From positions 1-22,639 of IMG/VR virus record IMGVR_UViG_3300017740_000091: DNA of 22,639 nucleotides; one strand, written 5' to 3'. Shown one piece after another: positions 13,460-20,073 of this stretch (positions within the stretch are counted from its first letter, which is position 1; each line of letters starts with the position of its first letter). A model generated the notes under the pieces. It was not told the DNA's origin. It ran no database searches and worked only from the letters and a program-made list of their open reading frames with translations. The stretch comes from a virus. The translations under genes and the position numbers were made by a program.

Positions 13460-13487
13460 TTGACAAAACAAAAATTTAGTGTATTAT
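13460..13487 (+). promoter_or_regulatory. Sigma70-type promoter of the hydrolase cassette
   Basis: A perfect -35 TTGACA (13460-13465) is followed by 16 bases and a -10 TATTAT (13482-13487). The predicted start, about seven bases after the -10, falls at the hydrolase ATG (13494). The gp55 promoter has the same -35 and the same spacing. The elements lie back to back with the gp25 late promoter in a region of 77 bases between the two start codons. Confidence 0.75.
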
Positions 13488-13493
13488 GTATAT

Positions 13494-14099
13494 ATGAATA
13501 AAGTGATCTACTTACATGGTGCTAATGCCAGCCCAGAAAACTTCAATTATTACACTTTGAAGTTGCCTGAGCACCAATTTTTTGCTCCTGCATACGATAT
13601 GGAAGATGATCCTTTTGATATTGTAGAAATTTTAAGAATCAGAAAGGAAAGAGAGTTTGGTAAAGAGCCTGTTGTACTTGTAGGGCATAGTTTTGGTGGT
13701 TTAATTGCCAGTTGGTATGCTAGTGTATATCCGAGGCGAGTTAAACATTTAATTACTATTGCTACACCATGGGAAGGAACTCCTGTTGCAAGAATATTTG
13801 CTATGCTATGGAAGGATAAGGTTTTCCAAAACACTAAACCAGGAGCAGAAGTTTTATCTTTACTAAAGGAAAAAAACTTTAATGGTAAACATACAAATAT
13901 TATTTGTACCAGAGGTTCAAACCCTGTTGCAGGTTTAGGTGGTAAAGCAAATGATGGCATGATATCATGTGATAGCCAGGGTGCAACACCGCCTGGTTTT
14001 AAAAATACTCAAAATGTTACTATAGAAGCAGGTCATAGTGAAGTTTTGTTAAATAATACTGTAACAGATATGTTACAAAATATAATCTTTGAGGACTAA
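13494..14099 (+). CDS. Alpha/beta hydrolase (lipase/esterase-like)
   Basis: A 201-residue alpha/beta-hydrolase with a complete set of catalytic features: an oxyanion HG near the N-terminus (YLHGAN, residues 6-11), nucleophile elbow GHSFGG with Ser66, likely acid Asp154 in NDGMIS, and His181 in AGHSEVL. The Asp-Gly and His contexts resemble lipases and PGAP1-like esterases; the substrate cannot be told. There is no signal peptide or membrane segment, so it should act in the cytoplasm. An in-frame GTG at 13479 would extend it by five residues but overlaps the -10 box, so the ATG at 13494 is preferred. No Shine-Dalgarno precedes it. It is the first gene of a two-gene plus-strand cassette lying against the direction of the baseplate operon, as expected for an accessory early gene. 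Possible roles are altering host lipids or small esters; none is shown. Confidence 0.85.
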   Translation: MNKVIYLHGANASPENFNYYTLKLPEHQFFAPAYDMEDDPFDIVEILRIRKEREFGKEPVVLVGHSFGGLIASWYASVYPRRVKHLITIATPWEGTPVARIFAMLWKDKVFQNTKPGAEVLSLLKEKNFNGKHTNIICTRGSNPVAGLGGKANDGMISCDSQGATPPGFKNTQNVTIEAGHSEVLLNNTVTDMLQNIIFED

Positions 14100-14100
14100 A

Positions 14101-14295
14101 ATGGCTGATGTATCCACATTAAATAATACTCTTGAAGAAGAGCTAAGAATTATGCTTGTAGAAAAAAATAATGAGTGTAATAGTTTAAGAAATCATATTG
14201 AACTTTTGGAAAAAGCAGTTGCTGATGAACAAGAGCAAAAATACAGGTTGCTTGTTCAAGTTGCAGATCTAAAAATAGAAATTAATAAACTTTAA
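14101..14295 (+). CDS. Small coiled-coil protein
   Basis: A 64-residue protein beginning MADVSTLNNTLEEEL, almost wholly helical in appearance, with Leu, Ile and Val at heptad-like spacing from about residue 7 to the end, charged residues between and no glycine or proline. It resembles short SlyX-like coiled coils in character only; I do not recognise the family. A clear GAGGAC ribosome site (14091-14096) lies within the last codons of the hydrolase, one base separates the two genes, and they are surely cotranscribed. An upstream in-frame TTG at 14089 is unlikely because it overlaps that site. Its last 14 bases overlap the 3' end of the convergent gp5 gene. Confidence 0.75.
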   Translation: MADVSTLNNTLEEELRIMLVEKNNECNSLRNHIELLEKAVADEQEQKYRLLVQVADLKIEINKL

Positions 14296-17071
14296 TATCT
14301 TTATAACCTAATTCTATATATTTTTTATCTTTAGCAGACCTAAGTAAAGTTCTTAATTGCCTAAAAGAAAGGTTTTTATCATTTACTATGCCCATTTCTT
14401 CATGACTTAGTTTAAGCCAATCAGGTGTAGTAAATAATTCTATTTCATACTCTCTTCTTTGTACATAATCTTGTCTAACCTGTACTTCGCTATCAGCACC
14501 TACTTTACCTGTTCTCCATCTTTTCATATATTTTGGAACAGTAAAATGATGTCCTTTATTAAGTTCTATAAGTAATTCGCTGTTTGCAAAATTGTTTAGA
14601 CCTATATGTGATGCAAAACTTGTAAGTGCAAGTAATTGATTTCCACTTACATCAACAGTAATTAATTGAGCAATTTGCTTTTTAGCAAGTTGTAGTTCGC
14701 TTCTTAACCCCATATTAGAACCTACAGGACCTATTCCATTTGAAATGTCTACTATCTTGGTGCCAGTTTTTCTATCTGCAAAAATTAAACTAGGCCCATC
14801 TACAGTTACATCTATGCCCTTTTCAGAAAGTTTTTCTTTTACTGCTGTAAAGTTATTGCTGTTAATACCCATAGAGCCCATTGGTAAACCTGATTGCTCA
14901 TCTACTGCATAATTAGGATGTCCACTTTTTAATTTATCAGCATGACTTTTAAATTCACCATATTGATCGTAAAAACCTTCTGCTTTGTTTATAGCATCGG
15001 TTACTTCTGATACCGCACCCATTATTTCATCTTTCATTTTACCCACATCAAAACCATCAATGTCTATAGGTAAGTCAAAGCCATCTAAACTAAATTGCCC
15101 TAATCTGGCTTCCATTTCTTTTATCTGTTTTGCTATACCAATAAACTTATCTCCTAAAGCATTTCCTGTAGGGAATCTAAATGGTGGTATTGCTATGCCC
15201 ATTGCGGCCATTAAGCCGTCCATGTTTTGTAAACTTGCTAAATCTTGTAAACTTGCTGGTAAGAAGTCACTAATCATTCCTTCTACGTCTGCCATATTAG
15301 GTATAAGATCCATCATACCACCTATAGCACCTGCTATTGCTCCAGTTCCGTCGGCAATACCTTGTCCAACAGCATCTGCTATCTCACTGGCTTTACCTAC
15401 AGCACCACTTGCCTTGTCTTTAAAGCCGTCACCTACTTTATCTCCTTCAGGAGATTGTGTATCTGCAGGATCTTCATCGCCTGGACTTGTTTGTCCTTCA
15501 TGTGTTTCTGCATCTGCAGATGTGTCTTCTTCCATGGATTCTTTATCTTCTGATTGTGGATCAAATTGGCCGTGTCCTGCATAAGGTTCTGCAGTAATAA
15601 GAGTACCAACAATAGATGTAATTTTAGTTTTTGTGCCTGGTCGTTGGCCGCCACTTGTAAGGGCCACATCTCCTTCTCTGTCATACTCTGGTGGATCGCT
15701 AGGTTGATCTTCTTGCTCAACACCATCTAAAGGCGTAGCAGTCATTTTTAATACATCTAATCCTGTTAATAAAGGAGCAGGACCAGTATTTAAATTAATA
15801 ATGCCTCCTGATATACCTGTTAATGCTGATGTAATGCCTACTGCTGGAGCGGCCATGGCCACAACACCTGCTTTTGCATTAATATCAACACCCATTGTGG
15901 TGCTGGATATAGATGTTGCTGTACCACTTAAAGTTTTAAACATGTTACCACTGTTAATATCTACATCTCCGCCTACTGCTGATAATTGTGCATTACGAGT
16001 TGCTAACATACTAACATCTTGATTAGCATGTAGCATAATACTACCACCTGAGCCACTTGGTCCTAAACCTAGTTTGGCTAATGTTTCACCTGTATAATCT
16101 CCACCAATATTATCACCTGCGGCCTTCATTCTGATATTTTGGCCTGCCTCTAAAACTATATCGTAATCTGCTCGTAGATTAAAATTCTTTTTGGCTCTAA
16201 GGTTCATATCCCCTTCACCAAATATATTAATATTTCCTAGCATATCCATCTCTACCCAGGATTTGCCATCTTTATTAATTGCGTAGATAGTGCCTGTGAC
16301 ATCATCTAATAAAATTTGTTGTCCTTTACCACTCCTGATTCTGATCATTGCTGACTGAGGATCATCGTCCATTATAAACTGATGTCCTGCCTGTGCAGGT
16401 TTAACACCGTCTTTACCTCTGGAACCTTTTGTAAGAATACCTAAAACTTGACTTGGTGTATCTCTTCTTGAACCTGCCGTTCCGGCACCCCTAAGAGCGT
16501 CATTTATTAAGCCTTGTTTTGTAATGGCTTCTGCCATGTCATGATGTATAGGTCTTAAAATATCATTATGCCCAGGCTGTTCTGAATATTTGTTTTTTTC
16601 TGCTACAGGTGTTAAAAAGTTTCCGCCCTGAAAACTTTTACCTGCTGGAATGCCAGGTACCATGTGATTAAATTCTGGTGGTAAGATATGGCTTATTACA
16701 TATCCATATTTTCTGTTACCGTCTGCAAAACATACTAATACCATACTGCCAATGTCTGGCGGCTGAAACCACATACCATAACTTTGCTGAGTGTTTTCAA
16801 ATTTTTCTGTATCGTCTGATTTTACATTGTCTACATTAGATATTCCTCCAAAAGGAGTAGCAAATCTAACCTTTTTAATTGACTTTACTTTTTTGCCTGT
16901 TGTTCTGTGTAGTGCAGGTATTTCAACATCTATTGAACCTGTTAAAAACTCGTCTTTATTATTGACAACTTTAGCCAAATAAATACCATTGTCTATAAGA
17001 GCCTCTTTATTTGGATCAGGATCGCTGTATGCTGAACCTAAAATTTTATTGCTGTAATCACCTTTAGCCAT
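14282..17071 (-). CDS. gp5: Baseplate central spike protein gp5-like, without the usual central lysozyme
   Basis: A 929-residue spike protein; T4 gp5 is 575. The N-terminal OB-fold is clear (about residues 28-140: GIYLAKVVNNKDEFLTGSI, VRFATPFGG, QPPDIGSMVLVCFADGN, YGYVISHILPP). About residues 225-430 form a VgrG/gp5C-like beta-helix (IRSGKGQQILLDD, INIFGEGDMNLRAKKNFNLR, DIVLEAGQNIRMKAAG). In T4 a lysozyme sits between these two; here residues 150-225 are too short and lack it. Then follow an acidic, low-complexity stretch (445-550), a Gly/Ala-rich hydrophobic stretch (552-600), helices (640-720), and a C-terminal segment resembling the second lobe of a GH24 lysozyme (listed separately). It is five bases downstream of the hub gene, with only a weak GGGG-type ribosome site. 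The protein should trimerise on the hub and pierce the outer membrane. Its 3' end overlaps the small coiled-coil gene by 14 bases. Confidence 0.85.
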   Translation of the reverse strand: MAKGDYSNKILGSAYSDPDPNKEALIDNGIYLAKVVNNKDEFLTGSIDVEIPALHRTTGKKVKSIKKVRFATPFGGISNVDNVKSDDTEKFENTQQSYGMWFQPPDIGSMVLVCFADGNRKYGYVISHILPPEFNHMVPGIPAGKSFQGGNFLTPVAEKNKYSEQPGHNDILRPIHHDMAEAITKQGLINDALRGAGTAGSRRDTPSQVLGILTKGSRGKDGVKPAQAGHQFIMDDDPQSAMIRIRSGKGQQILLDDVTGTIYAINKDGKSWVEMDMLGNINIFGEGDMNLRAKKNFNLRADYDIVLEAGQNIRMKAAGDNIGGDYTGETLAKLGLGPSGSGGSIMLHANQDVSMLATRNAQLSAVGGDVDINSGNMFKTLSGTATSISSTTMGVDINAKAGVVAMAAPAVGITSALTGISGGIINLNTGPAPLLTGLDVLKMTATPLDGVEQEDQPSDPPEYDREGDVALTSGGQRPGTKTKITSIVGTLITAEPYAGHGQFDPQSEDKESMEEDTSADAETHEGQTSPGDEDPADTQSPEGDKVGDGFKDKASGAVGKASEIADAVGQGIADGTGAIAGAIGGMMDLIPNMADVEGMISDFLPASLQDLASLQNMDGLMAAMGIAIPPFRFPTGNALGDKFIGIAKQIKEMEARLGQFSLDGFDLPIDIDGFDVGKMKDEIMGAVSEVTDAINKAEGFYDQYGEFKSHADKLKSGHPNYAVDEQSGLPMGSMGINSNNFTAVKEKLSEKGIDVTVDGPSLIFADRKTGTKIVDISNGIGPVGSNMGLRSELQLAKKQIAQLITVDVSGNQLLALTSFASHIGLNNFANSELLIELNKGHHFTVPKYMKRWRTGKVGADSEVQVRQDYVQRREYEIELFTTPDWLKLSHEEMGIVNDKNLSFRQLRTLLRSAKDKKYIELGYKDIKVY
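14432..14707 (-). other. GH24 lysozyme C-terminal-lobe-like segment at the end of gp5
   Basis: Residues 789-880 of the gp5-like protein match the second lobe of phage lysozymes of family GH24 in order and spacing: ELQLAKKQI, then NQLLALTSFASHIG (where endolysins have NQ..ALVSFAFNVG), SELLIELNKG (STLLRKLNAG), KYMKRWRTG (.F.RWV.AGG) and RREYEIELF (RREAERALF). The first lobe should carry the catalytic Glu-x8-Asp-x5-Thr before it; residues 740-788 show only a remote echo (IFADRKTGTKI) and no proper triad. Comparison is with patterns I remember, not a search. Confidence 0.6.
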
Positions 17072-17076
17072 AATAG

Positions 17077-20073
17077 TTACCCATTACCCCTTCTTCTTTT
17101 CTCTTCAGCATCTGCCTCTTTTTTCCAGGCCACATAAGCATCATATTGCTCTTTTGTAATTTTTTCATCTTTAAGTAATGATTGAGGTGTTGCATCTTCG
17201 TTCGCCGCCAGAGCCCCTTGTACATATCTGTGACTTGGTTGTCTAGCATCAGTATCCGTAGCACCTTCTCTATCACTTTCTGAAACAACACCATCTTGTA
17301 ACTTGGCTGAGAACCCTGTACGGTTTTCATCTATATACCTAAAGTTACCATCTCTTTGCATGTTGTTTAAACTTATTGCTGTTTCTTTTACACCCATAAT
17401 GTCCATGGTATAAACACCATTATCAAACTTATGTGTTACGTTTCTTACCTGATATATTCCAGATATAAAGTAAGATGTTCCGTCTCCTTCTTTAATCCAT
17501 AAACCTGTATTGTTATCTTCGTTTTCTACATCAGGATCAAATAACCTTGGTGAATTTAAACTAAAAAGGAAAAAATTATCTGTTGTAGTTGTTAAGTAAT
17601 TATTACCGTCTTCATCTGTTTCTTTTAATTGCTGGGAAGTAAATCCTACAGGAGTTTTAGTTGTGCCGTGTTTGTGTACCGCTCTTCCTAACCACCAAGG
17701 ATCGCCTCTTAATTGCATTTCTAATTTCATTAAAAACTCTATTGCTTGATGTTGATCATAAAGATATGTAAACAAGTTGTTCTTTATACCCTTAGTGGTA
17801 CCTACATTACTGAATCCTGTTTTATATTCGAATTTCTTTCTTTGTGCTACACCATCTGTAATTTCTTTGTCTGCTTCTGGTTCGTCTTTACTTTTTCTAT
17901 CTTCTTTAAACTTTTGTCCTCCATCCGCTATTTGCTCTGCATATTTTGTGTTACCTATTAGATCTCCGCCATAAACAAAACCTGATTGTGAAGGACTAAA
18001 TTCTTCACTTTGTGTTACAACATTAGCCTGATTTGTTTCTTTTCTTTGTGCAGTAACATTATCTGCTATTGCTTGTGCTGTTTCTTTTTTAGACAATGCT
18101 TCTTCTAGTTCTTTTGCGGCCTTTCCATTACTGTTTGTTATTAAATCTTTAATCTTTGATTCTGTAAAACCAGCCGCACTACCTATTTCTTTAAGGTATG
18201 CTTCTCCTTTTTCTACATTTGCTTTTAATTTTTTTAATTGATCAAAGAAACTGCCACCTTGTTCATCTTGTGCGGCTTCTTTTAATTTTTCAATACCTCC
18301 TTCGTCTAGACTTTCATCTTTAGGTACTGGTGTAGATTTTAAAACACTAGCGGCATTTAAACTTACATCTCCTAACATACCTCTATCTGGAGGTAGTAGT
18401 AATGCTATGCCTTCGTTAAACTGAATATTGCAACTTAAAATTTGATCGTTTCTGCCAGTAAATATATATTCGTATGCCTTTTGAATTTTCATTTGATTAA
18501 CTCTGGTAGTAGTTTGGTCTTTAGATAAATTATTATTACTGTCTACTTCCCAGGGAAAAACTGCTATGTCTGTTTTATCGCTCATAAAAGTGTATGCGTT
18601 TAAATGTGCTAATTTGTAGTATTGCTTTTCTTTCCTGTCGTAATCCATGTATTCCATACTACCATTAAAATCATACCAACATATTTGTTTTGTTGCATCT
18701 GTTTCTTCTTTTGAAGGATCCTCAACGTCTGTTGCTCTGGTTGCCTTTTGCATAAACTCTTTATTCATAGACAACAACAATCCTAATACTCTTGTCATAT
18801 CCATGCCTTCTTTAAGAGTAAGTTCTATCATATTTGTTTCTGGATTTTTATTAATAGAGGATTTATTTTCTCTAGGCTTCTTTGCTTCTTCTTCTGCTCC
18901 TTCTGTACCTTCTTCTGCCGCCTTTTCTGTGACTGCTAAATTTGTTACTTTGGCAGTAGTTTCTGTATCTTCAATATCTAGAGACTGATCTGTAATGTGT
19001 TCTAACCCTGGCACATTATAATTTTGTTTTATTGAGGCAGATGAATCCACACCTGTAGCCGCGGCAACGGCCCCTCCAACAGCACTTCCGGCTCCCGCAA
19101 CACCACTTGTTGCAGATCCTTCTTCTAATCCAAAAGATATCCTTTGTGGTTTTCCTTGCTCTAAATTATAAGTGTTGGTTTGATTTTCTAGGTCTCCAAG
19201 CATTTGGCCTATTGTGGTGCCTACTATTGTGTACATTTTACTTGTTCTAAAAAATGCATCTGCTGTGTACATATCATCTTTGACAACAGTTGAAAATTCG
19301 TATGTAGACCCTGCTTCTGTAATTTCCATTGAAAAGTTACTCAGCAATAAAGGATATACAAATGGCCCTGTAACATTTCCTATTATTTCGCCACCAGCAA
19401 CATCTGTTTCCCAATTATCTGGATCTAAATTAGATTCTTTCCTGCCTCTGAAACTTACTTCTAAAAACATAGGACAATCCATAGCATCAGCAGGAGCACC
19501 TAAATATGTCCGTGCTTTTACTATTTGATCCGGGAAATCAGCCGCATTAGGCTGTGTAATTGTAAAATTAACTGTAGAAGCATGGCTTCCACCTGAACCA
19601 CTTGGTACTGTGACTATCTCTACACCGTCTATACCTACTTCTGTTACACCTGTTTCTGCAAGTACTACTGTATCTGAAGGATCGTCTGTATCCATACGAT
19701 TGTTTAAATAGCCTGTTGCTCCTGTGCTTTGACTATTCCCGTCACCTGGGCTTACATCCTGTCTTGCATCTTCTGATGATGTGACTTCGGTATCTTCAGT
19801 TGTGCCTGCTTCTGAACCTGCTGAGCTATTTTTACTGCCAGGTCCAATCATATAAAGTTTTAAATGGTATGTTGGTAGGTCGACAGTATCTAAAATATTT
19901 CCTAGTACTTCTCCAATATATTCGTTTACTATTAATGGTGGTTTTTTCTTATCAGTATTCAACCATCCTTTTTTCTCTTCAGTTGTTGTACTTTTTGGAT
20001 CTGTTGACGAGCTGTCTTGACTGCCATATATGTTTTTGACATTTTCTGAATGATCGTTCATTATGTCAGACAT
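17077..20073 (-). CDS. Baseplate hub protein, gp27-like candidate (998 residues)
   Basis: Large structural protein between gp53 and gp5. I infer a gp27-type hub from position directly upstream of the spike gene and from tube-like and hub-like segments: YPLLLSNFSMEITEAGSTYEFSTVV (240-264, a tube-fold strand pair), IQKAYEYIFTGRNDQILSCNIQFN (530-553), LEMQLRGDPWWLG (784-796) and SGIYQVRNVTHKFDNGVYTMDIMGV (871-895). The last resembles the closing strands of other contractile-tail hubs (G.Y.V..VTH.F..G.F...L). T4 gp27 is about 390 residues; the excess comes from charged low-complexity insertions (about 78-165, 370-415, 580-740) and an Ala/Gly stretch (318-345). It may be the protein annotated as a virion structural protein at this place in cyanophages. 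A strong AGGAGG lies five bases before the ATG. Frame and structural role are certain; hub identity is inferred. Confidence 0.75.
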   Translation of the reverse strand: MSDIMNDHSENVKNIYGSQDSSSTDPKSTTTEEKKGWLNTDKKKPPLIVNEYIGEVLGNILDTVDLPTYHLKLYMIGPGSKNSSAGSEAGTTEDTEVTSSEDARQDVSPGDGNSQSTGATGYLNNRMDTDDPSDTVVLAETGVTEVGIDGVEIVTVPSGSGGSHASTVNFTITQPNAADFPDQIVKARTYLGAPADAMDCPMFLEVSFRGRKESNLDPDNWETDVAGGEIIGNVTGPFVYPLLLSNFSMEITEAGSTYEFSTVVKDDMYTADAFFRTSKMYTIVGTTIGQMLGDLENQTNTYNLEQGKPQRISFGLEEGSATSGVAGAGSAVGGAVAAATGVDSSASIKQNYNVPGLEHITDQSLDIEDTETTAKVTNLAVTEKAAEEGTEGAEEEAKKPRENKSSINKNPETNMIELTLKEGMDMTRVLGLLLSMNKEFMQKATRATDVEDPSKEETDATKQICWYDFNGSMEYMDYDRKEKQYYKLAHLNAYTFMSDKTDIAVFPWEVDSNNNLSKDQTTTRVNQMKIQKAYEYIFTGRNDQILSCNIQFNEGIALLLPPDRGMLGDVSLNAASVLKSTPVPKDESLDEGGIEKLKEAAQDEQGGSFFDQLKKLKANVEKGEAYLKEIGSAAGFTESKIKDLITNSNGKAAKELEEALSKKETAQAIADNVTAQRKETNQANVVTQSEEFSPSQSGFVYGGDLIGNTKYAEQIADGGQKFKEDRKSKDEPEADKEITDGVAQRKKFEYKTGFSNVGTTKGIKNNLFTYLYDQHQAIEFLMKLEMQLRGDPWWLGRAVHKHGTTKTPVGFTSQQLKETDEDGNNYLTTTTDNFFLFSLNSPRLFDPDVENEDNNTGLWIKEGDGTSYFISGIYQVRNVTHKFDNGVYTMDIMGVKETAISLNNMQRDGNFRYIDENRTGFSAKLQDGVVSESDREGATDTDARQPSHRYVQGALAANEDATPQSLLKDEKITKEQYDAYVAWKKEADAEEKRRRGNG

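Follow-up and report, generated by a model that had tools for sequence, protein, structure and literature searches.

A gp5-like phage hub protein ends in a conserved module that pairs a GH24 C-lobe with a segment lacking any conserved glutamate where the catalytic lobe would stand

Baseplate locus and hub protein

The window, which is the whole stretch of DNA that we analyzed, comprises 22,639 bases of a virus record and encodes on its minus strand a large gp5-like hub protein with the following parts:

14282-17071, minus strand: gp5-like baseplate hub/spike protein, an open reading frame of 929 amino acids
15722-17071, minus strand: hub proper, residues 1-450, OB-fold and beta-helix with no inserted lysozyme
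14870-15409, minus strand: linker, residues 555-734, helical by a low-confidence prediction
14720-14851, minus strand: residues 741-784, where a GH24 catalytic lobe would stand (AlphaFold2 with 30 relatives, entropy)
14432-14719, minus strand: interlobe helix and GH24 C-lobe, residues 785-880 (PF00959, PDB lysozymes, pairwise similarity)
14285-14431, minus strand: family-specific tail, residues 881-929 (alignment of relatives, AlphaFold2)

Profile searches assign the N-terminus of the protein (residues 31-214) to phrog_13211, "baseplate hub subunit and tail lysozyme" (E 4e-25), with further matches to DUF2345 (E 3e-5) and, weakly, to Phage_base_V, and the N-terminal OB-fold and beta-helix typical of the gp5-like hubs of jumbo myoviruses are present. 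Residues 6-375 are 35% identical to PA5oct gp350, and over the N-terminal ~375 residues identity is 35% to the hub of Salicola phage SCTP-2, 32% to that of Atu_ph07, and 25% to that of RaK2; the hub proper is conserved across jumbo myoviruses. Among the genes near the hub are those for gp25, gp6, and gp53 and for a late sigma factor that resembles gp55 (neighbor profile matches include phrog_43/GPW_gp25, phrog_10646, phrog_7145, and phrog_12791), and their order is shared with PA5oct and RaK2. Given a gp5-like hub with baseplate neighbors in the PA5oct/RaK2 order, we take this region to be the baseplate locus of a probable marine jumbo phage.

Two genes on the opposite strand lie between the hub and gp25, one for an alpha/beta hydrolase (13479-14099, plus strand; Abhydrolase_1, E 1.3e-13) and one for a 68-residue protein (14089-14295, plus strand). 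The pair is retained in most relatives of the locus, and no relative of the hydrolase was found among cultured phages. On the other side of the hub, positions 17077-20073 (minus strand) encode a 998-residue virion protein (phrog_11190) that has no Pfam match and is ~320 residues longer than its 674-residue PA5oct counterpart.

The GH24 C-lobe and the borders of the module

The preliminary description of this DNA had recognized, in the last part of the hub protein, motifs of the second lobe of GH24 lysozymes in the order NQ..ALTSFA..IG, SELL..LNKG, RW..G, and RREYE.ELF. All of these are present, positions 14432-14707 corresponding to hub residues 789-880, and residues 789-874 match positions 44-123 of the 125 in the PF00959 profile (E 1.7e-9; 38.5 bits against a cut-off of 22.3), well beyond what chance would give; all 30 aligned relatives likewise match PF00959. 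The C-lobe also matches the PHROG 10457 endolysin (E 3e-11) and the PDB lysozymes 9kbq, 6h9d, and 8app, a profile built from nine relatives finding PDB lysozymes at E 3e-9. In pairwise comparisons, similarity to the majority of endolysins sets in at about residue 789, in the interlobe helix, and this helix and the C-lobe are recognizable both by sequence and by fold. Behind them, the tail (residues 881-929) holds a TTPD motif in which T882 and D884 are invariant, and its last predicted helix spans residues 903-921.

Profile searches found no second GH24 match elsewhere in the hub protein or in the window. Because the only match covers residues 789-874, the position occupied by the lysozyme in T4 is empty here, as had been proposed. 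T4 gp5 resembles the window's hub in joining an OB-fold/beta-helix hub to a lysozyme-derived part, but differs in that its lysozyme is active and stands between the OB-fold and the beta-helix. The suggestion that the lysozyme had been permuted can be set aside because N-terminal segment, interlobe helix, and C-lobe follow each other in the usual order and the sequence beyond residue 880 has no resemblance to lysozyme.

Whole-length relatives of the protein were found with 64-100% identity in the best segments, and a profile search with the C-terminal module shows that it is carried by 63 IMG/VR loci. No relatives were found in bacterial or archaeal genomes, and cultured phages gave no module-like protein, the matches listed being ordinary lysozymes and endolysins. 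Comparing gene organization in 18 loci, we observed the module fused to the hub in L099 (from the window's clade), L109, L171, and L172; together with linker-like sequence in a separate open reading frame, with the cut falling ahead of the linker, in L140, L147, and L167; and as a separate gene of ~190-260 codons directly behind the hub in the other 11 (L104, L106, L135, L136, L142, L145, L151, L152, L158, L163, and L166). Linker-like sequence closes the hub gene in L104, L135, L136, and L158, and gp25 and gp6 always lie downstream of the module. These gene borders in sister loci show that residues ~735-929 form one unit to which residues 735-785 belong, and that the module of ~185 residues is autonomous.

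Nei-Gojobori estimates of dN/dS, from which saturated pairs were left out and which are rough because synonymous divergence is high, are 0.04-0.15 for residues 740-785, 0.11-0.26 for the C-lobe, and 0.11-0.20 for the hub. The module is thus under purifying selection, nothing in these values suggests decay, and 21 columns are invariant in 30 sequences that are each 35-75% identical to that of the window. The preliminary description had regarded the lobe as a relic, or as a decayed lysozyme; such values, the invariant residues, and retention of the module in 63 loci speak against this, as does the finding that the segment at 741-784 is among the most conserved parts of the module.

The segment in place of the catalytic lobe

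Residues 741-784 are strongly conserved from residue 753 onward and carry the motif D758-G-P-S / D766..G770-x-K772 / N778-G-x-G-P782. Among 25 non-redundant sequences, mean entropy is 0.82 bits at residues 758-782, compared with 1.34 bits in the C-lobe core (806-850) and 0.85 bits around RRxYExELFTTPD (866-884), and D758, S761, I763, G770, K772, G779, G781, and P782 are invariant; D766 is present in 24 of the 25 and replaced by His in L104. In GH24 enzymes a general-acid Glu ends the first helix, but no Glu is conserved anywhere in residues 741-784 of the 25 relatives, the commonest (E750) being found in nine of them. As a result, the canonical Glu-Asp-Thr triad is absent. The T-I-G-x-G-H motif with its water-positioning Thr/Ser is likewise not found in the alignment of relatives, where the region mostly reads I/V-D-x-S-N-G. 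A Glu outside the segment, in NKAEGFY (residues ~694-700), was considered as a catalytic residue and rejected since it is not conserved in L020 or L017. The claim that the catalytic lobe is missing therefore holds for the triad but not for the space, which is filled by ~45 conserved residues with a predicted helix and three strands.

AlphaFold2 modeling with 30 relatives (mean pLDDT 83.8, pTM 0.67) predicts a helix at 741-750, strands at 753-758, 761-766, and 772-775, an interlobe helix at 781-803, and then the C-lobe, with pLDDT about 64-84 for the part resembling a catalytic lobe; an earlier model of residues 560-929 from eight sequences was poor (pLDDT 45.7). This order corresponds to what we take to be the layout of T4 lysozyme minus its second small helix. 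Confident Foldseek matches are to GH24 lysozymes only, SpmX included. Foldseek does not superpose the segment, and alignments that take it in mostly have an rmsd of 12-18 Å, compared with 3.9 Å over 114 columns for 8app_A.

Which acid of the segment would correspond to the catalytic Asp depends on the alignment. Predicted element order would put D758 at the place of Asp20 in T4 lysozyme, while profile alignments, which match ADRKTG with YPDPATG of the catalytic Asp loop, put D766 there. In a column-shuffle test of the segment alone against the GH24 catalytic lobe, 13 of 150 shuffles reached the observed score, and anchored shuffle tests against GH24 sets (68/120, 4/120, 82/100, and 70/100) gave results that depend on the set. 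By sequence, then, residues 741-784 are not established as homologous to the GH24 catalytic lobe.

Origin and possible roles of the module

A tree built from C-lobes requires only one origin for the module family and places it among endolysin-type GH24s. Lysozymes at the C-terminus of other hubs fall elsewhere in this tree, as do the T4-type lysozymes of RaK2 and pEa, although many forks are weak and the module group has a support of 68/100. Derivation from an endolysin-type GH24 lysozyme appears to be the best explanation of the module. The C-lobe is ~37-40% identical to those of GH24 endolysins from Atu_ph07, Acinetobacter phage TRS1, and Roseobacter phage CRP-3, which differ from the module in being free proteins with a complete catalytic lobe. 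The RaK2-like phages RaK2 and pEa_SNUABM_47 have the same hub with a GH24 fold at its C-terminus and the gene order of the window (gp55, structural protein, gp53, structural protein, hub, ... gp25/gp6). Their domain, however, is a lysozyme of T4 type that bears the Glu...Asp...Thr signature "TYTDSRGFPTIGYGH", and in the tree it sits on a branch of length 3.35, outside every other GH24 row. In the same group, CBB_240 was reported in 2017 to have a C-terminal lysozyme/GH24 on a gp5-like hub (PMC5259590), and placement of a lysozyme at the hub C-terminus was therefore already known. The IMG/VR hubs L022, L023, and L186-L201 also carry a C-terminal GH24 on this kind of hub, but most have an intact triad (for example "KFEGKKSQTYLDSAGLPTIGIGH") and they form a separate tree group. 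Movement of the lysozyme from its T4 position, which had also been suggested, is not supported: the C-lobe is of endolysin type, the tree sets the module apart from the T4-type and other hub lysozymes, and the L022 hub has one internal and one C-terminal GH24.

Other hubs end in other domains: a GH24 and an M23-like stretch in RaK2, a GH19-like domain in L076, and Phage_lysozyme2 in L084 and L066. In jumbo phages the hub end accepts exchangeable domains, among them lysozymes of several types, a protease, a chitinase-like domain, and this remodeled lysozyme.

Where a lysozyme might be expected, the hub of Agrobacterium phage Atu_ph07 (L005:5938-8532) has a protease domain of trypsin-like type at its end (Trypsin_2, E 6e-17), and the hub of Sinorhizobium phage Phosso (L003:5947-9078) has, by eye, a similar end. 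The 1170-residue L022 hub (L022:5908-9417) has its two GH24 domains at residues ~595-770 and at the C-terminus and, again judged by eye, an SGNH-hydrolase-like stretch at ~318-460.

The gp5 hub/spike is trimeric in T4, and the GH24 C-lobe of known enzymes contacts the peptide side of peptidoglycan. The preliminary description had offered either a peptidoglycan-binding or structural part or a much diverged active enzyme, and we favor the former. On balance, and with little to spare, we consider it probable that the module is a conserved GH24-derived pseudo-lysozyme that engages peptidoglycan or a partner, or holds structure, at the end of the spike. An endolysin-type GH24 module (residues ~735-925) at the C-terminus of the gp5-like hub/spike would have kept the interlobe helix and C-lobe, whereas its catalytic lobe would have been replaced, or remodeled past sequence recognition, giving a short helix and three-strand segment without the general-acid Glu. 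GH24-type cutting, and with it muramidase activity, would most likely have been lost, and from a presumed position at the spike end the module might bind peptidoglycan, or a baseplate or periplasmic partner, as the tail passes through the cell envelope. All families of the lysozyme superfamily are listed with a Glu as general acid (PMC2976769), whereas no Glu is conserved at residues 741-784 of the 25 relatives; together with the strong constraint on both parts of an autonomous module at a hub end that hosts exchangeable domains, this argues for a pseudo-lysozyme. A precedent is the muramidase-like domain of SpmX (PDB 6h9d), a structural and profile match to the module, which is GH24-derived, serves protein contacts, and has no detected activity (PMC5347347); it differs in that its lobe is complete and retains the catalytic Glu (E19), and it belongs to a bacterial polarity protein rather than a virion. 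Phage A-1(L) has a hub with a lysozyme-like domain, and it is for the two other domains of that hub that hydrolysis was shown (PMC10966104). As a stand-alone protein of ~185 residues, the module offers a handle on whether a spike can use a non-cutting lysozyme-derived domain and a case for how a catalytic lobe is exchanged while its partner lobe stays; the automatic label "tail lysozyme" would mislead for the window's hub.

Two observations weigh against a pseudo-lysozyme. The invariant polar residues D758, S761, and K772 lie on the former active-site side, as in a working site, and the 250-kb contig G001, in which the module stands alone (L145), has no second GH24, amidase_2, M15, SLT, M23, or CHAP domain, searches with PF00182, PF05838, and PF11860 being uninformative because their controls were silent. 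Among the families that could be tested, then, no other hydrolase was seen, and peptidoglycan hydrolysis in that phage may fall to the module. Both points fit a much diverged active glycosidase, acting as tail lysozyme, in which acids of the D758/D766 type replace Glu and Asp in a new signature hairpin; we regard this as possible but rather unlikely. The catalytic hairpin is the most conserved part within each lysozyme family (PMC2976769), and the hairpin-like part of the module is strongly conserved too, yet its Glu is gone. The invariance of D758 and near-invariance of D766, the alignment of ADRKTG with the catalytic Asp loop, and the hydrolase families that sister hubs carry at the same place are also in keeping with activity. 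D758 and D766, however, are placed by prediction in beta-turns (DG, DxxG), in which an Asp often has a structural role, the second of them is His in L104, and the segment is not significantly similar to the catalytic lobe of GH24. The bolder claim that the module cleaves peptidoglycan with a new Glu-less catalytic lobe on a GH24 C-lobe, and so represents a new branch of the lysozyme superfamily, is doubtful; if true, this Glu-less enzyme would be the tail lysozyme of marine jumbo phages.

Still less probable, in our view, is domain replacement, in which a small alpha/beta unit of unrelated descent became joined to a GH24 C-lobe on its own and gave the module a different function, such as protein or glycan binding or hub assembly. 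Most endolysin similarity does start only at the interlobe helix, the segment at 741-784 shows no sequence link to GH24, and including it mostly gives Foldseek rmsd values well above that of 8app_A, but the predicted order of elements is that of GH24 without the second helix, and a remodeled lobe needs fewer steps. Finally, a functionless, decaying remnant of an ancestral tail lysozyme would account for loss of the triad, but is very improbable in view of the purifying selection, the invariant columns, and the number of loci in which the module is kept.
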